In this document: positions 1,920-23,431 of the stretch, one piece after another
Layout: the number at the start of each line of letters is the position of its first letter
Numbering within the stretch: position 1 is the stretch's first letter
DNA from: Opitutia bacterium
GTDB taxonomy: Bacteria > Verrucomicrobiota > Verrucomicrobiia > Opitutales > Opitutaceae
NCBI GenBank assembly: GCA_016187925.1
Contig: JACPIS010000025.1
Coordinates: 123,531-187,530, forward strand
Reading direction: 5' to 3'
DNA length: 64,000 bases
Translations under genes and position numbers: made by a program
The notes under the pieces: model-generated
Database searches by the model: none
What the model saw: the letters and a program-made list of their open reading frames with translations, nothing else
Told to the model about the DNA's origin: nothing

Positions 1920-3167
1920 TCAGGCGAGTTCGCGCAGCCGTTTTTCCAGAAAACGTATCTCCGGGTCGGATTTGGCCAGCGCGTGCGCCTGCTCGTAGGC
2001 GGCCCGGGCCTCGTCACGGCGCCCGAGCCGGCGGAGCAGGTCGGCGCGGGCCGAATGCGCGAGGTGGTAATCTCGCAGCTCGCCGCGCGCGAGCAGCGCA
2101 TCGATGAGGGTCAGCCCGGCGGCGGGACCTTCGTGCATCGCGACGGCTGCGGCGCGGTTGAGTTCGATGACCGGTGAGGGCTGCAGCGCCAGCAACGCGG
2201 CGTACAGCGCGCAAATCTGCCGCCAGTCGGTCGCCTCCGGCGTGCGCGCCTCGGCGTGGACGGCGGCGATGGCGGCTTGCAGCGTGTAGGAGCCGAAGCG
2301 CCGCGTGGCCAGGGCGCGCTCCACCAGCGCGACGCCCTCGCGGATGAAAGCGGGGTTCCATGCCGACCGGTCCTGTTGCTCAAGCAGCACGAGCCCGCCA
2401 TCGGCGCTGACGCGCGCTGCGCGGCGCGATTCGTGCAGCAGCATGAGCGCGAGCAGCCCGATAACCTCCGGTTCCGGCAGCAGCTCGAGCAACACGCGGC
2501 CGAGGCGGATGGCCTCGGTCGACAACTCCGCGCGCGTCAGCGAGGGACCCGACGACGCGGCGTAGCCTTCGTTGAAGAGCAGGTAGACTACGGTTAGCAC
2601 CGCGCCCAACCGCTCCGGCAGTTCCGCGGCCGCCGGCACCTGGTAAGGGATGCGTTCATCGCGGATCCTGGCCTTTGCGCGGACGATGCGCTGGGCGATC
2701 GTCGGCGCCGAGGTGAGAAAGGCGCGCGCAATCTCCTCGGTGGTCAGTCCGCAAACCGCGCGCAACGTGAGCGCCGCGCGGGCGTCGGGCGCCAGCGCGG
2801 GATGGCAGCAGGTGAAGATGAGCTTCAGTTGGTCGTCGGGCAGTTCGTCGCCGCCGGCGGGCGCGGCGGGTTCGCCGCCATGCAACGTCTCGGCGATGCG
2901 GTCCTGCGCCGCGTCGAACCGCGCGCGGCGGCGGATCGCGTCGATCGCCTTGAAGCGCGCGGTCGAGATCAGCCAGGCGCGGGGATTCGCGGGCGGGCCA
3001 TCCACGGGCCAGCGCTGCAGCGCGGCGTTGAACGCGTCGTGCATCGCATCCTCGGCCAGGTCGAAACCGCCGAGCAGACGGATGAGCGTCGCGAGGATGC
3101 GGCCCGATTCCGCCCGGAACAGGGCGTCGAGGCGGGTGCGAATCTCGTCCGCGGATGGCTTGGGCAT
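1920..3167 (-). CDS. RNA polymerase ECF-type sigma factor (YCII-associated class, DUF6596-like C-terminus)
   Basis: Sigma-70 region 2 (LIRLLGGFDLAEDAMHDAFNAALQRWP) and region 4 (LTLRAVCGLTTEEIARAFLTSAPTIAQRIVRAK); long C-terminal extension. Confidence 0.9.
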   Translation of the reverse strand: MPKPSADEIRTRLDALFRAESGRILATLIRLLGGFDLAEDAMHDAFNAALQRWPVDGPPANPRAWLISTARFKAIDAIRRRARFDAAQDRIAETLHGGEPAAPAGGDELPDDQLKLIFTCCHPALAPDARAALTLRAVCGLTTEEIARAFLTSAPTIAQRIVRAKARIRDERIPYQVPAAAELPERLGAVLTVVYLLFNEGYAASSGPSLTRAELSTEAIRLGRVLLELLPEPEVIGLLALMLLHESRRAARVSADGGLVLLEQQDRSAWNPAFIREGVALVERALATRRFGSYTLQAAIAAVHAEARTPEATDWRQICALYAALLALQPSPVIELNRAAAVAMHEGPAAGLTLIDALLARGELRDYHLAHSARADLLRRLGRRDEARAAYEQAHALAKSDPEIRFLEKRLRELA

Positions 3168-3322
3168 GCGGGGAAAGAGGAGAGGGGAAGCCGGCCGCCA
3201 GCAGCAAGAGTATTTGGGGCGGCGGACGCCGGACGTGCGCCCGGCGGAAAATCATCGCCGCCAGCGGGACGAACGCCTTGCATCGCCGCGTGGAGAATTC
3301 ACGCCTCGCCCCGTCAAACGCG

Positions 3323-5725
3323 GTGTTCACGCCACTCGTCCGGCCGCTCGCCGCTGCCGCGCTCCTGTTTGGAATTCATCTCGCCTTCGGCGCCGAAACG
3401 CCGCCTGCGCGCCCCGGCGCCTACGCCGGACATCACCGCGTCGAACGCAGCGTCGTGGTAGAAAGCGTCAGCGGGGCGCGGCTGCGTCTGACGCCCTACG
3501 GCGAACACATGCTGCGTGTCCAGGCCGTGCCGCGCGGCGCGGAGTTTTTGCCGGACGAGCATCTGCCGATGATCGAGCGGCATGATCTCGGTGGGGAGCT
3601 GGTCGTGACGGACGAGCCCGCTGCGCTGCACATCGCCACCCACGCGGCGGACGGCGTCGGAGTGACGTTGTCGAAAGCGAACCTCACCGCGCGCTGGCAG
3701 TGCAACGGCAGCGCGGCACCGCAACTGGTCGAGGCGGGCGGGATCACCTGGGAGGAGCGGTCGGTCCGCCTCGAATTCGCGCCGGACGCCGCCGAGCATT
3801 TCGCCGGGCTGGGCCATGGTTTCTACGGTCGCGACGCCGCGCCGCTGGATTTGCGCGGCCGGACGATCTCGCGCTCGTACGGCTTCCAGGCGTCGCTCAT
3901 CGCGCCGTGGTTTATCTCCAGCAAGGGCTACGGGTTTTTTCTGAATTGCGCGTTTCCGCATCGCTTCCGCTTCGACGCCGGCGGGCACTTCGATGTGGAG
4001 ATCACCGGCACTGATCTCGGTGCGCAGCTCGACTACGTGGTCGCTGCGGGGCGGACGCCGCTGGAGCTGATTGCGCGCTACACGGAGCTGACCGGCCGGC
4101 CGCGGTTGCCGCGCCGCGCGATGTTCGGCCTGCAGGTGACCGACAAGCACCGCGAGGCGGAGAGCCTCGCGCAAGGCATGACGTGGTGGTTCGATAATTT
4201 CCCCAAGCTGCGCGCCGCGGGCATTCCGGTCGACGCGATCATCATGGACAACACCTGGCGCGCGGGCGGTGGCACGTGGCAGGACTCCATTTTCGCATTC
4301 GACCCCAAGCGCTATCCGGACCCGAAGGCGTTTCGCGCGTGGGCCGAGCGGATGGGCGTGATCGTCGATCTCGATTTCAACGGCCCGATGTACATGCAGA
4401 GCGAGGGTTGGAAACCGGAGTACGGCGTGCGCGGCGGCCAGTTGAAGGACGGGCGGCCGTTCTATCTGCCCAATTTTTTCCGGACCGATACCAACGACTG
4501 GCTGTGGGGGCTGATGTGGCGCAACGCGCTCGACCCGCGGCTCGGTTATCCCGGCGACATGCTGTGGATGGACGAGACCGACCAGGCCAACGTCGCCGAC
4601 GAGCGCGCACCGTTCCATGCCGGGCGTCCGTGGCTGGAGCTGAAAAGCCTGTACGCGCTCGCGGGTGCCAAGGCGCTCGTCGAGCGTTGGGACCGGGATT
4701 TCGCCGGCGCGAAGCGGCCTTACTTCTGGTTCCGCTCGGCGACGAGCGGGCTGCAACGCTACGCGGTCTACTGGTCGGGCGACATCGAGGGCGACGAGGC
4801 GGACCAGTCGGCGCAAATCCCCGCGATGCTTTCCGCGGGCATCTGCGGCCTGCCGTATTTCAGTTATGATGCCGGCGGCTGGCAGTCGACCGACGAGCCG
4901 ATTTACCGGCGCTACGGGATCGTGACCGGCAGCCTGAGCCCGGTGTGGCGGACGCACGGCATCAAGGGCCCGCGCTGGCCGACCGATTACGGCGCGGACG
5001 TCGTCGCGCTCGCGCAGCGTTACGCGGGGCTGCGCTACCGGCTCTTCCCGTATCTCTACAGCCTCGCGCGGCAGGCCACGCGCGACGGTACGCCGATGGC
5101 GCGCGCGCTGTTCCTCGACTCGCCCGGCGAACCGGAGGCGTGGCGGCGCGATTACCAGTATCGTTTCGGTCCATCGCTCCTCGTGGCCCCGCCGGTCGAG
5201 AGCCGCCGGGATGTCTGGCTGCCGTCCGGCGCTTGGTTCAACTGGTGGAGCGGGGCGCGGGCGGAAGGCGGCCAGACGGTCGCGGCTCCGGCCGGCGACG
5301 AGGCGGCGGTTTACGTCCGCGCCGGTGCGGTCATCCCCATGGGCGAATTTGCGCTCAGCTCGCAGTTCATTCCGGCGGACCGCCTGGAAGTGCACGTCTG
5401 GTGCGGGGCCAGCGGCGCGTTCGAACTCTACGAGGATGACGGCACGACCGAGCGTTACCGCGCCGGCGAATTTTCCGTCACGCCGCTGACGTGGGACGAC
5501 GCCGCTGGGGCGTTGCGCATCGGCGCGCGCGAAGGGAGTTGGCCCGGCGCTCCCGCGCAACGCCACTGGAGCGTCGTGCTGCACGGACTCAGCGGTCCGC
5601 GCCGCGCGGTCATCGACGGCCAACCGGCAACCGATGTGCGTTGGGATGCCGCCCGACACACCCTGTCTATCGCATTGCTCGAGCGCCGAGGAGCGGTTGG
5701 GGTCGAAATGCGCTTGGTGCGCTAA
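3323..5725 (+). CDS. GH31 family glycosidase (alpha-glucosidase/xylosidase-like), probably secreted
   Basis: ORF open from 3155; likely GTG start near 3323 before a signal-peptide-like stretch. GH31-like segments GYPGDMLWMDETDQ and YFWFRSATSGLQRYAVYWSGDIEGD. Confidence 0.85.
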   Translation: MFTPLVRPLAAAALLFGIHLAFGAETPPARPGAYAGHHRVERSVVVESVSGARLRLTPYGEHMLRVQAVPRGAEFLPDEHLPMIERHDLGGELVVTDEPAALHIATHAADGVGVTLSKANLTARWQCNGSAAPQLVEAGGITWEERSVRLEFAPDAAEHFAGLGHGFYGRDAAPLDLRGRTISRSYGFQASLIAPWFISSKGYGFFLNCAFPHRFRFDAGGHFDVEITGTDLGAQLDYVVAAGRTPLELIARYTELTGRPRLPRRAMFGLQVTDKHREAESLAQGMTWWFDNFPKLRAAGIPVDAIIMDNTWRAGGGTWQDSIFAFDPKRYPDPKAFRAWAERMGVIVDLDFNGPMYMQSEGWKPEYGVRGGQLKDGRPFYLPNFFRTDTNDWLWGLMWRNALDPRLGYPGDMLWMDETDQANVADERAPFHAGRPWLELKSLYALAGAKALVERWDRDFAGAKRPYFWFRSATSGLQRYAVYWSGDIEGDEADQSAQIPAMLSAGICGLPYFSYDAGGWQSTDEPIYRRYGIVTGSLSPVWRTHGIKGPRWPTDYGADVVALAQRYAGLRYRLFPYLYSLARQATRDGTPMARALFLDSPGEPEAWRRDYQYRFGPSLLVAPPVESRRDVWLPSGAWFNWWSGARAEGGQTVAAPAGDEAAVYVRAGAVIPMGEFALSSQFIPADRLEVHVWCGASGAFELYEDDGTTERYRAGEFSVTPLTWDDAAGALRIGAREGSWPGAPAQRHWSVVLHGLSGPRRAVIDGQPATDVRWDAARHTLSIALLERRGAVGVEMRLVR

Positions 5726-16062: not shown

Positions 16063-16242
16063 TCGCGACCAAGGAAGCCCACGACGGCCCGGGAGTCAAC
16101 GGGCGCGGTGAAGCCAGATTGGCCCGGGATGGGACAGGCGGCGCGCCAATAGGCCCGGCGGGCGCGGCCGGGCGGCGGCGCTCAGAGGGGCAAGGCCGGT
16201 TCGCAGGTTGGAATGCCGGCTGCAAAGGGATACGCTACTTTT

Positions 16243-18852
<2,610 letters not shown>

Positions 18853-19063: not shown

Positions 19064-19272
19064 AGCGCCGCGTCACGGTGACGCTCGACTCGAAAGCGAA
19101 GGAGTGGGTGGCGGAGAAGGGCTACGACCCGGTTTCCGGCGCGCGCCCGCTCAAGCGTTTCCTGCAGCGCCACCTCGAGACCCGGCTCGCCCGCGCCCTC
19201 ATCGCCGGCGAAGTCACCGAGGACGCGAAGGTTACCTTCAAGGCCAAGGGCGACGAACTGGTGATGGGGTGA
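19064..19272 (+). pseudogene. Extra clpB 3'-end fragment (copy C1)
   Basis: [68 protein letters not shown] matches the ClpB C-terminus. Confidence 0.93.
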
Positions 19273-19291: not shown

Positions 19292-19891
19292 TCAGCTCTG
19301 CGCGAACGCCACTATCGGCCCGAAGTCTCCTGCGTCCGCTCGCCGCATCGCCGCGAGATAACGCTGGCGAGTCTCGCCGGGTGCCAGGAGATCGGCGTGC
19401 GCGCCCCACGTCGGCTCCGCCACTTTTCGCGCCGCGCACCAGACGTCGGCGATCAAGCGCGCGTGGCGACCATTCCCGTTGGACCAGGGATGAATCACGA
19501 CCAACCGGTGATGCAGCCGGGCTGCGGCCTCGAGAAGAGGGTAGGTCCCGTTCTTGTCCCAATACGCCGCGTCCTCGAAGGCAGTTCGCATCCCCTCGGT
19601 GATCCGAGGCCAATCCCAGCCCAGTGTCTTTTCCGTGGTGCGATACTTGCCGGCCCAACGCCACACCTCGGAAAACATCCGCCGGTGCAGTTCCCGCGCA
19701 AAGTGATCGGTGAGCAGATCCTCACGCCGGAGCACCCGGGGGCGCATCGCCCACAGCCGGGCGTCGTTGATGTTGTAGCGTTCGAGCGCGTTGAGCTCCG
19801 CTCGCGTCGCGATGCTGGGCACAAGGTCCAGTTGTTCCTCGGGTGTCAGCGGCGTGTCGCCGGGCTGCGTTTCGAAAAGGTCGGACGTCAC
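19292..19891 (-). CDS. Fic-domain protein, mobile mystery protein B family
   Basis: Fic motif HPWSNGNGRHAR; GTG start overlapping the partner stop; N-terminal LTPEEQLDLVPSIATRAELNALERYNI. Confidence 0.88.
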   Translation of the reverse strand: MTSDLFETQPGDTPLTPEEQLDLVPSIATRAELNALERYNINDARLWAMRPRVLRREDLLTDHFARELHRRMFSEVWRWAGKYRTTEKTLGWDWPRITEGMRTAFEDAAYWDKNGTYPLLEAAARLHHRLVVIHPWSNGNGRHARLIADVWCAARKVAEPTWGAHADLLAPGETRQRYLAAMRRADAGDFGPIVAFAQS

Positions 19892-20304
19892 GGCTTGCGC
19901 TTTTTCAGATCCCCGACCGCCTGACCCTCCAACGACATGGAGTGCTCTGTCTTCCGCAGATGCTTGAACATCGGGTCGTGGATTTGCGCCAATTCGGCGA
20001 AGGTCCGCCCCGCGGTTTCCTTCGGCACGAGGAAGTAGACCACCTCGCAATCCATCGCCTCGGCCGCCCGGTCCAACGACTTCAAGCTGATCGAGCGATT
20101 GGCTTCCGCCCGCTCGAGTTGGGCATACGACTGCCGCGTGACTCCGATCGCCTTCGCGACCTCGGTCTGTTTCAGGCCGATGGCCTCGCGCACACTTTGC
20201 AACCAGCCCCAGCCCGGACGCCGAATCGACGTTCGAGCGTCTTGCATCACGGAGGTCTGCTGGTCGAGTGCGGTGCGGATGATGTTTCGTGCCCCTGCTT
20301 TCAT
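19888..20304 (-). CDS. HTH regulator, mobile mystery protein A family (probable partner of Fic protein)
   Basis: WGWLQSVREAIGLKQTEVAKAIGVTRQSYAQLERAEANRSISLKSLDRAAEAMDCEVVYFLVP. Confidence 0.88.
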   Translation of the reverse strand: MKAGARNIIRTALDQQTSVMQDARTSIRRPGWGWLQSVREAIGLKQTEVAKAIGVTRQSYAQLERAEANRSISLKSLDRAAEAMDCEVVYFLVPKETAGRTFAELAQIHDPMFKHLRKTEHSMSLEGQAVGDLKKRKP

Positions 20305-20383: not shown

Positions 20384-20404
20384 CATGCTTGCCTCCGGAC
20401 TGAT

Positions 20405-20566
20405 GCCGAGAAGAGCTACGACCCGGTCTTCGGCGCGCGCCCGCCGAAGCGCTTCCTCCAACGCCACCTCGAAACCAAACTCGCGAGAGCCCTCATCGCG
20501 GGCGAAGTGACCGAGGACAGCGCCGTGAAATTCTCGGTGAAGGACGACGCGCTGGTGATGAAGTGA
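20405..20566 (+). pseudogene. Extra clpB 3'-end fragment (copy C2)
   Basis: [53 protein letters not shown]. Confidence 0.93.
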
Positions 20567-20760
20567 CGCCGGATCATCCTGAAAACCACCATTGGACACA
20601 GAGGGCACAGAGCCGAACCGGAGGAACACAGAGGGTCGAGTCCACGAATCATGACGAGCGGATTCATCCGTCAGGTAAGCGCCCCCAAAGCCATCTGGTT
20701 TCAGAGATGCATTCTCCGTGAACTCGGTGTCGCCTCTTTCGATCTCTGTGACGGGATTGG
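20567..20760. repeat. Flank repeat F2, second copy of the clpB downstream segment
   Basis: cgccggatcatcctgaaaaccaccattggacacagagggcacagagccgaaccggaggaacacagagg... aligns along its length with 18853-19045. Confidence 0.85.
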
Positions 20761-20762
20761 CA

Positions 20763-20924
20763 GCCGAGAAGGGCTACGACCCGGTCTTCGGCGCGCGTCC
20801 GCTCAAGCGTTTCCTCCAACGCCACCTCGAAACCCGCCTCGCGAGAGCGCTTCTTTCGGGCGAAATAGCCGAATGTTCCGAAGTAGAATTCGGAATCGAG
20901 AGCGGCGAATTGGTCATTAAGTAG
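20763..20924 (+). pseudogene. Extra clpB 3'-end fragment (copy C3, most divergent tail)
   Basis: [53 protein letters not shown]. Confidence 0.9.
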
Positions 20925-20931
20925 GCATCTC

Positions 20932-21717
20932 ATGTCGCTCTACAAGTATACCCGCCCTGCCAACGCGCGCTTTTTGGCCCCGTGCACCTTGCGTTTCAGC
21001 CCCGCAAGCGAGTTCAATGATCCATTTGACGGGCTGCCCGACACTGCCGCTCTCACGACGATGCCGGAATACCAAAGAATCAAAAACGAATGGGAGGGCT
21101 TGGCGATGCACGATCCTTCGGACCTGGAGCTTGCACGCGGAGCGGCGATGGCGGGTGAGCTAATCGAGCAGAAGGCCAAAACCGGCATGATCAAACGGCT
21201 GCTTGCGGACTTGAACCAAAATTTTCGCATCCTCTGCCTCAGTCACGCATCTCCGGAATCCATGGGCGCAGCACTCATGTTCGGACACTACGCCGACAAT
21301 CATAAAGGCTTCGCATACGAGTTCGACGAACACCATCCTTGGTTCGCCGAGCACGAGGCCCGAAGAAATCCCTCGAGAGAAATCGGTCCAGTCGTGTATC
21401 GCCAGCATCGCGCTACTGTTGTCGGCGACGGTCGCCAGGGCCTTTTCGTGAAATCCAGCTTGTGGTGGTATGAGGAAGAATTTCGGCTGGTCCGCTATAT
21501 CGGTGCTGGAGCTAACGGTCTCTCGGGTGCGGATCATTCGATTGCCCGATTCCCGCCTGACATGCTTACGGCAATTTTGGTCGGTTGCATGGCGGAGGTC
21601 GCCACGGTCGATGAACTGAAGAAGCAACTGGCCTCGCGTCCGGAGCTGGCTCACGTTCGGTTGGAGCGCATGATTCCACACCCAGACGCCTTCCTCTTCA
21701 CTCGTGAAGGTATCTAG
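20932..21717 (+). CDS. DUF2971-like protein
   Basis: MSLYKYTRPANARFLAPCTLRFSPASEFNDPFDGLPD; lower-GC accessory gene. Confidence 0.75.
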   Translation: MSLYKYTRPANARFLAPCTLRFSPASEFNDPFDGLPDTAALTTMPEYQRIKNEWEGLAMHDPSDLELARGAAMAGELIEQKAKTGMIKRLLADLNQNFRILCLSHASPESMGAALMFGHYADNHKGFAYEFDEHHPWFAEHEARRNPSREIGPVVYRQHRATVVGDGRQGLFVKSSLWWYEEEFRLVRYIGAGANGLSGADHSIARFPPDMLTAILVGCMAEVATVDELKKQLASRPELAHVRLERMIPHPDAFLFTREGI

Positions 21718-21744: not shown

Positions 21745-22437
21745 CTAGGTTCCGCCCGCCGCGTTGAGTTCGGAAAGATCTTGATGGCTGGTCCCGACTA
21801 CGCCCTCTGCGGTATGGCGTAGGATCACCGCAGGATAACAGCATTCGTAGGGGAAAAGCTCTGTGGCGCGCTGAAAGACCGGTGCAGCACTTTTCGCCGC
21901 CTGCGGAATAGTCTGCGGTCCGTGATTACACAGGCTCTTTAGCTCGTCATATGCGGCGATATTCGGACCGGGCTGGCTGATGGCCATGAAGTAGCCTGCC
22001 GCAGGTTGGAACCGCAGAACTTGTCCTGTCTGAACAAATACGAACCACAGCATCCCCGGATGCGGACTTACAAAAGCGAACATCTTCGCATTCTGTCGGA
22101 AGCTCTCCCGCTTCGCGTTGTCGTCCTGTCCGGTGGCGTCGTCTTTCCAGTCTCCGTTGTCCGCTTCGTCTCTAAGGCGGGCCAACATCACATCTCGGAT
22201 CACTTCCGGCAAGAATCCGGGTTGATTGTCGACGGCTGTTTGCAGGGTATCAATGGATTGGATTCCACCCTTTGCTCCGGCAAAACCTCCGAACGTTACC
22301 ACGCAAGCTTGGCCGTTACGATTTCCAGTCACGAACTTGATCGCATTGCGCTCTGGAGCGTCGACGTCTGGTATAGCGATGCTGTCCGCCATAAGCAGCA
22401 CGCCGTCGCTACAGGCTTTCGCAAGCAGGAAGGTCAT
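21745..22437 (-). CDS. Putative proteasome/HslV-like Ntn-hydrolase (Thr peptidase)
   Basis: MTFLLAKACSDGVLLMADSIAIPDVDAPERNAIKFV: after Met removal T1, D17, K33; then VVTFGGFAGAKGGIQSIDTL and TGQVLRFQPAAGYFMAISQPGPNIAAYDELK parallel HslV blocks. Start 10 nt after hicA stop. Confidence 0.7.
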   Translation of the reverse strand: MTFLLAKACSDGVLLMADSIAIPDVDAPERNAIKFVTGNRNGQACVVTFGGFAGAKGGIQSIDTLQTAVDNQPGFLPEVIRDVMLARLRDEADNGDWKDDATGQDDNAKRESFRQNAKMFAFVSPHPGMLWFVFVQTGQVLRFQPAAGYFMAISQPGPNIAAYDELKSLCNHGPQTIPQAAKSAAPVFQRATELFPYECCYPAVILRHTAEGVVGTSHQDLSELNAAGGT

Positions 22438-22447
22438 GGGCTCAGAC

Positions 22448-22672
22448 TCACTTCCGAAACAATCGGTGATCGAGGCCGCTGAGGCGGATGATCGATTTGA
22501 GCGTGCCGGTCGCGACTTCGCGGTGATTGGGGACGGGCACCGTGGCGCTGTCGCCGCCCGGCAGTTCACGCCGCATGATGATGTGGCTACCGGCTTGCCG
22601 CTCCCGCACAAAACCGTGGGCCGCGAGGATGCGGCAGATCTCGGCCGGCGGCAGCGGGCGGAGTTTAGGCAT
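22448..22672 (-). CDS. hicA: HicA-type toxin
   Basis: LPPAEICRILAAHGFVRERQAGSHIIMRR...VPVPNHREVATGTLKSIIRLSGL. Confidence 0.9.
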   Translation of the reverse strand: MPKLRPLPPAEICRILAAHGFVRERQAGSHIIMRRELPGGDSATVPVPNHREVATGTLKSIIRLSGLDHRLFRK

Positions 22673-22925
22673 GCGCCAACGTCAGGGGCCGCACGCGGGC
22701 GCCGCGTTTCAGGCACCGTTTGATCTCGGCCGCGCTCGCCGCCTCAAGCCACAGCTCCACCGCCTCGGCGAGCATCCGGTGCGCTTCCGTGCGGGTCTTG
22801 CCCTGGCTCGCCACGCCCAGCTCCGGGCAGCGGGCGACAAACCAGGAGCCATCCTTCTCGATGACCGCCGAAAAGTTCGGCAGATCGATCACCTGGCCGT
22901 CGCGCTCGATCCAGTTGGCTTTCAT
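22665..22925 (-). CDS. hicB: HicB-type antitoxin
   Basis: FSAVIEKDGSWFVARCPELGVASQGKTRTEAHRMLAEAVELWLEAA; overlaps hicA. Confidence 0.88.
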   Translation of the reverse strand: MKANWIERDGQVIDLPNFSAVIEKDGSWFVARCPELGVASQGKTRTEAHRMLAEAVELWLEAASAAEIKRCLKRGARVRPLTLAHA

Positions 22926-23431
22926 GGTGGCAACTAAGCGCAGGCAGCCGTAGGCGTCAAGCGCCCCGCCTTTTACTCGCTTTGGTTCAATGCCGCAAAG
23001 CTTGCTTCGCCTTGGTTTGGGTTGTGGGAGCGTGCTTGCACGCGAGTCGCTCCCACAAATACAGCCAATGGGATGGCTTGGCCGGATGCCTCGGGGCTTG
23101 CCCCGAGGATATTCACTGCAAGGCCGTGGGTGACGAGCCGGCGCTGGGGTATGAGGGAAATTCCGCTTGGATGACAGACGGCTAGTGGAGGGGCATGAAG
23201 CCCCGTTTGACATCTTCCAGATGAGCCGCGGCTCGGCGGGACACCTCGCCCTACCACGCGAACCGATTTATACTTAAAAACAAGTAGACTTAGCTATAAA
23301 TCGATAGATTCCCGTTAACTAACCCGTCCGTCGCAAAATATCCGCCGAGGAATTGTGGCCATTCTTTTTCCGACAGGCCTACGCATCGGGACGCCTCGCC
23401 CTACCTACCACGCGAACGCGCGGATCGACCA

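Follow-up and report, generated by a model that had tools for sequence, protein, structure and literature searches.

A probable divergent proteasome-like gene, likely gained as unrelated cargo, behind an ordinary hicBA module in an Opitutia bacterium

In this study, a stretch of 64,000 nucleotides (the window) from the assembly of an Opitutia bacterium (G000; 3.99 Mb in 48 contigs) was analysed, in which a gene for 230 aa, here designated X, lies immediately behind hicB and hicA. X is probably an orphan, divergent and stand-alone proteasome-like gene, which was gained as unrelated cargo behind an ordinary hicBA module at an insertion hotspot downstream of clpB.

Gene order and the hicBA pair

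The initial annotation placed hicB, hicA and X in this order on one strand, with X starting 10 nt behind hicA, and its coordinates were right: hicB shares 8 nt with hicA, the gap between the hicA stop and the start of X is 10 nt, and all three genes are on the minus strand (Table 1). HicA scored above the Pfam cut-off (PF07927). HicB matched DUF7387 above the cut-off and UPF0150 just under it, and is devoid of a DNA-binding part. With a HicA domain, a HicB-like antitoxin and overlapping genes, the pair is a type II toxin-antitoxin module of the ordinary two-gene kind. It is like the known HicBA modules in its overlapping genes, in having the antitoxin first and in a HicB without DNA-binding domain; only the neighbour X is unusual. 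The promoter-like sequence before hicB was noticed by eye, and a promoter scan did not report this candidate. From the spacing of the genes, read-through from hicBA over the 10-nt gap is likely, and X would be made in this way.

Table 1. Positions of the features in the window
Feature	Position	Strand	Remarks
clpB 3′ end and its copies	18678-18850, 19098-19270, 20392-20564, 20750-20922		
Fic + Xre pair	19292-20304	minus	between clpB-end copies
DUF2971-like ORF	20932..21717	plus	convergent; PF11185 just under cut-off; low GC3 like X
X	22437-21745	minus	230 aa; orphan, very probably a divergent proteasome-like (Ntn) protein
Predicted Lys33 codon of X	22338-22336	minus	from sequence; Lys in every alignment row
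Predicted Asp17 codon of X	22386-22384	minus	from sequence; invariant in relatives alignment, by construction of the pattern search
Predicted Thr1 nucleophile codon of X	22434-22432	minus	from sequence; invariant in relatives alignment, by construction of the pattern search
DNA block common to hicBA of G012 (90%) and G019 (78%)	22450..22926	minus	hicB ATG to hicA stop
hicA toxin gene	22672-22448	minus	74 aa; GSH motif; PF07927 E 2.5e-17
hicB antitoxin gene	22925-22665	minus	86 aa; HicB-like domain only; orthologues with 98/86/80/83% identity in four genomes
Promoter-like TTGACG-17-TTAGTT	22926..22960	minus	just before hicB; by eye, weak; comparable spacing, also by eye, before hicB at locus L007

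N-terminal signature, sequence similarity and fold of X

X shares with the proteasome-like superfamily an N-terminus of the form MTxhh[A/G]xxxxDGhhhx[A/S]D[S/T], the absence of a propeptide and, as had been counted correctly from the residue after Met, the proteasome spacing of T1, D17 and K33. A Gly-rich stretch is found at the expected oxyanion hole, and the C-terminal half fits in the model described below. The pattern M-T-x-hydrophobic-hydrophobic-[A/G]-x4-D-G-hydrophobic3-x-[small]-D-[S/T] was scanned in 2.9 million viral contigs and matched in frame in 36 stretches, all 36 of which were proteasome-like reading frames by inspection (two cut by the contig end). Six such proteins were tested, and all six scored above the curated PF00227 cut-off and matched PHROG 1040, 'peptidase HslV family'. 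A control pattern shifted by one base gave one match in the same contigs. The signature occurred once in the window and in none of 100 shuffles, and its chance by base composition was approximately 1e-13 per position. As far as these sequences indicate, the N-terminal pattern of X is diagnostic for proteasome-like proteins, and this short signature finds such proteins where profiles fail.

The first 21 residues of X were 52% identical to those of two of the viral signature proteins. Since the viral set was selected by X's own motif, the conservation of T1 and D17 in it follows from the search itself. Lys33 is outside the search pattern and aligned in X and all 13 relatives of an alignment whose members had been selected by a script for keeping the register at Lys33 and in the GSG region. 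Three of the viral loci (L048, L051 and L057) encoded phage-contig proteins of 248-280 aa starting MT[LAV][IL]VG..C.DG..., with a C-terminal part longer than that of the common 177-184 aa type; two were tested, and both were above the PF00227 cut-off.

X had no family match in Pfam, NCBIfam, PADLOC or PHROGs, and no match to PF00227 at E<=1. Matches from a sequence search of the PDB were at chance level only and were discarded. Past residue 21, neither pairwise nor profile scores of X against the tested family members stood out from those of its own shuffles. This applies also to two later blocks of X, which had been lined up by eye with HslV in the initial annotation; the line-up did not hold statistically, and in place of the HslV-type G-S-G, X reads AISQPGP. 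A first proteasome profile, built from seven typical members, did not tell X apart from its shuffled versions, and hhalign of X against it gave a P value of 0.005 with a probability of 7%, which was not taken as proof. A local profile from 17 members ranked X first of 3001, via residues 1-48 only. Ser154 of X is near the Ser of GSG, and the aligned Asp166 column has Phe in X, in a part where the alignment is uncertain. In the 20S proteasome, Ser129 and Asp166 matter for activity (PMC4792962); because X has no G-S-G and has Phe in the Asp166 column, catalysis by X is unproven.

AlphaFold modelling of X as a single sequence gave a pLDDT of 39 and no meaningful structural match, with a rough strand/helix order that fits. 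With a 14-sequence alignment, the pLDDT was 59.8 and the pTM 0.56, a model of moderate confidence based on an alignment picked by X's own motif and hence partly circular. Subject to this circularity, the model matched chains of 20S and of Anbu from end to end (E 3e-5, probability 1.00, TM 0.58/0.67), and all 50 of the structural matches listed were proteasome or Anbu. Matches to predicted viral structures were weaker, and by look the model therefore does not appear to be a mere copy of the aligned phage proteins.

It is highly improbable that X is not proteasome-like, with an N-terminus that is coincidental or an ORF that is no functional gene. The empty library searches, the poor single-sequence fold and the insignificant similarity past residue 21 speak for this explanation. 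Against it, the pattern is rare by chance and specific in a real viral collection, the signature coincides with the very start of an ORF of 230 aa whose position-specific GC is coding-like, Lys33 is in register, and strands and helices are predicted in a fitting order. Together, the diagnostic N-terminus, the spacing of K33 and the fold model make it very probable that X is a divergent proteasome-like (Ntn, T1-type) protein, despite the moderate, partly circular model and the lack of significant similarity beyond residue 21.

Methionine aminopeptidase removes Met before Thr. As the next residue of X is Thr, this enzyme would remove Met1 and leave a free Thr1, which with Asp17 and Lys33 may form the catalytic centre. 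If active, X would work on its own as a peptidase or amidase, with no ATPase dedicated to it, rather than as a controller of HicB.

The proteasome-like superfamily comprises PF00227 and 22 additional families, for example AAH, PMI-4 and Anbu, and the new families have been described as lacking telling gene contexts (Fuchs, Alva and Lupas 2021, PMC8665760). X differs from the superfamily in lying under detection by every profile tried, in having no G-S-G and in the Phe at the Asp166 position, and by the tools used it was not assignable to one named family. HslV (ClpQ) has in common with X the Thr right after Met and the spacing of D17 and K33, whereas significant similarity, a PF00227 match and the GSG motif are missing in X, which has 230 aa versus 176 aa of HslV. 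An assignment of X to HslV was rejected on the lack of significant similarity and the AISQPGP in place of the motif. No PF00227 protein above the cut-off was found in the genome carrying X or in 56 relatives, and HslV seems to be absent from the order as sampled.

The diversity of proteasome-like proteins goes far beyond the proteasome and HslV, and nearly all new families are without function. X would add a new singleton lineage to this known superfamily, beyond the reach of family profiles and in an order without members above the Pfam cut-off among the sampled genomes. The hicBA itself is of an already known kind, and its neighbourhood adds little because it is not conserved.

Distribution of X and hicBA loci in related genomes

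No relative of X was detected in three overlapping sets of genomes, namely 95 relatives, 388 from the phylum and 373 from the order; weak partial matches in the search of relatives and phylum (E 0.002-0.01) were taken as chance. In plasmids and phages, tblastn of X found none, and none was detected by a pattern search in viral contigs. Peptide patterns with confirmation by tblastn gave no relative in 84,980 species genomes, a kind of scan that can miss relatives. Searches of viral and genome contigs with alignments steered to the motif of X, some rows of which were made-up search aids and not real proteins, yielded no confirmed relative.

The hicBA pair was found elsewhere, and in each case X was absent. 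A genome of the same genus (G012) has a HicB 98% identical to that of the window, with hicA present, in the same orientation and at the same spot downstream of clpB; between clpB and hicA there is a different gene on the opposite strand. In a genome of another genus (G019), HicB is 86% identical, and the hicBA block, which lies at another genomic place, has identical boundaries. Two further genomes (G010 and G054) have a hicB of 80-83% identity with hicA broken or missing. At both of these loci (L009 in G010 and L010 in G054), hicB is near a gene reading like glycine dehydrogenase (gcvP); they look like what is left of decayed hicBA modules, at a second location common to both genomes.

For the order, 30 hicA loci from 373 genomes were examined, and a proteasome-like start behind hicA was seen at none of the 29 other than that of the window. 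This neighbourhood survey showed a lone occurrence of X behind hicBA, an outcome that the initial annotation had named as refuting its proposal. Conversely, no match to hicA or hicB beyond chance was present at the 36 viral signature loci.

Antitoxins are degraded by general proteases. In a dedicated three-gene system, X would be a Thr protease that degrades HicB and frees HicA, or it would serve as a third effector, and the same strand, the 10-nt gap, the intact triad spacing and the lack of any PF00227 protein detected in the genome are in line with such a role. Nevertheless, this is very unlikely: the sister hicBA loci have no X, the linkage did not recur at the 29 other loci, and X is a singleton with a different GC3. 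In addition, a survey of HicA contexts names 14 of them, and the words protease, proteasome and peptidase are absent from its text (PMC10865869). It is likewise very unlikely that with X a hitherto undescribed family of proteasome-like proteins has come to light for the first time, captured by hicBA as antitoxin protease or third effector. Of the original interpretation, the proteasome-like nature of X was supported; the dedicated hicBA protease is unsupported, because near-identical hicBA occurs without X, none of the 29 loci repeats the arrangement, and X, a singleton, has a codon composition unlike that of hicBA. The arrangement resembles the tripartite toxin-antitoxin-chaperone modules (PMC5105189) in having a third gene behind the toxin-antitoxin pair, but no recurrence of hicBA-X was seen in the searched genomes, and X is no chaperone.

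Base composition and the surroundings at the clpB end

The GC content at third codon positions (GC3) was 0.615 in X and 0.653 in the convergent DUF2971-like ORF, compared with 0.80 in hicA, 0.87 in hicB and 0.83-0.95 in the neighbouring chromosomal genes. The position-specific GC of X is coding-like, and its third-position GC is foreign.

The last approximately 170 nt of clpB (16213-18852) recur three more times downstream, with 74-85% identity. The Fic and Xre genes lie between these copies, and X and the DUF2971-like ORF sit between the last copy and hicBA. This looks like serial insertion of cassettes, each with a copy of the clpB end. In another genome of the same genus (G008; locus L120, G008:C50:5500-11500, about 2634-5000), two clpB 3′ ends 2.1 kb apart enclose AbiEi-like and AbiEii-like genes, named from reading the translation. 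The clpB end seems to be a recurrent insertion hotspot for toxin-antitoxin and defence-like cargo.

Another reading of X is defence or counter-defence cargo, possibly from a phage or mobile element like AAH and PPH, that sits with other toxin-antitoxin and defence-like genes downstream of clpB. The Fic and Xre neighbours, the AbiE-like genes and hicBA at the same hotspot in relatives, and the related proteins in phage contigs agree with this, and AAH and PPH have been reported in phages (PMC8665760). It is nonetheless unlikely, as the searches of phages, plasmids and viral contigs detected no relative of X and PADLOC gave no match. Unrelated cargo remains the preferred reading of X, although the 10-nt gap is as in a designed operon, X starts almost where the conserved hicBA ends, and loss of X in the sister genomes is possible.

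Upstream of hicB, a palindrome-like sequence, TTGTGGGAGCG...CGCTCCCACAA, was noticed at 23013-23058 and is present in a single copy in the window.
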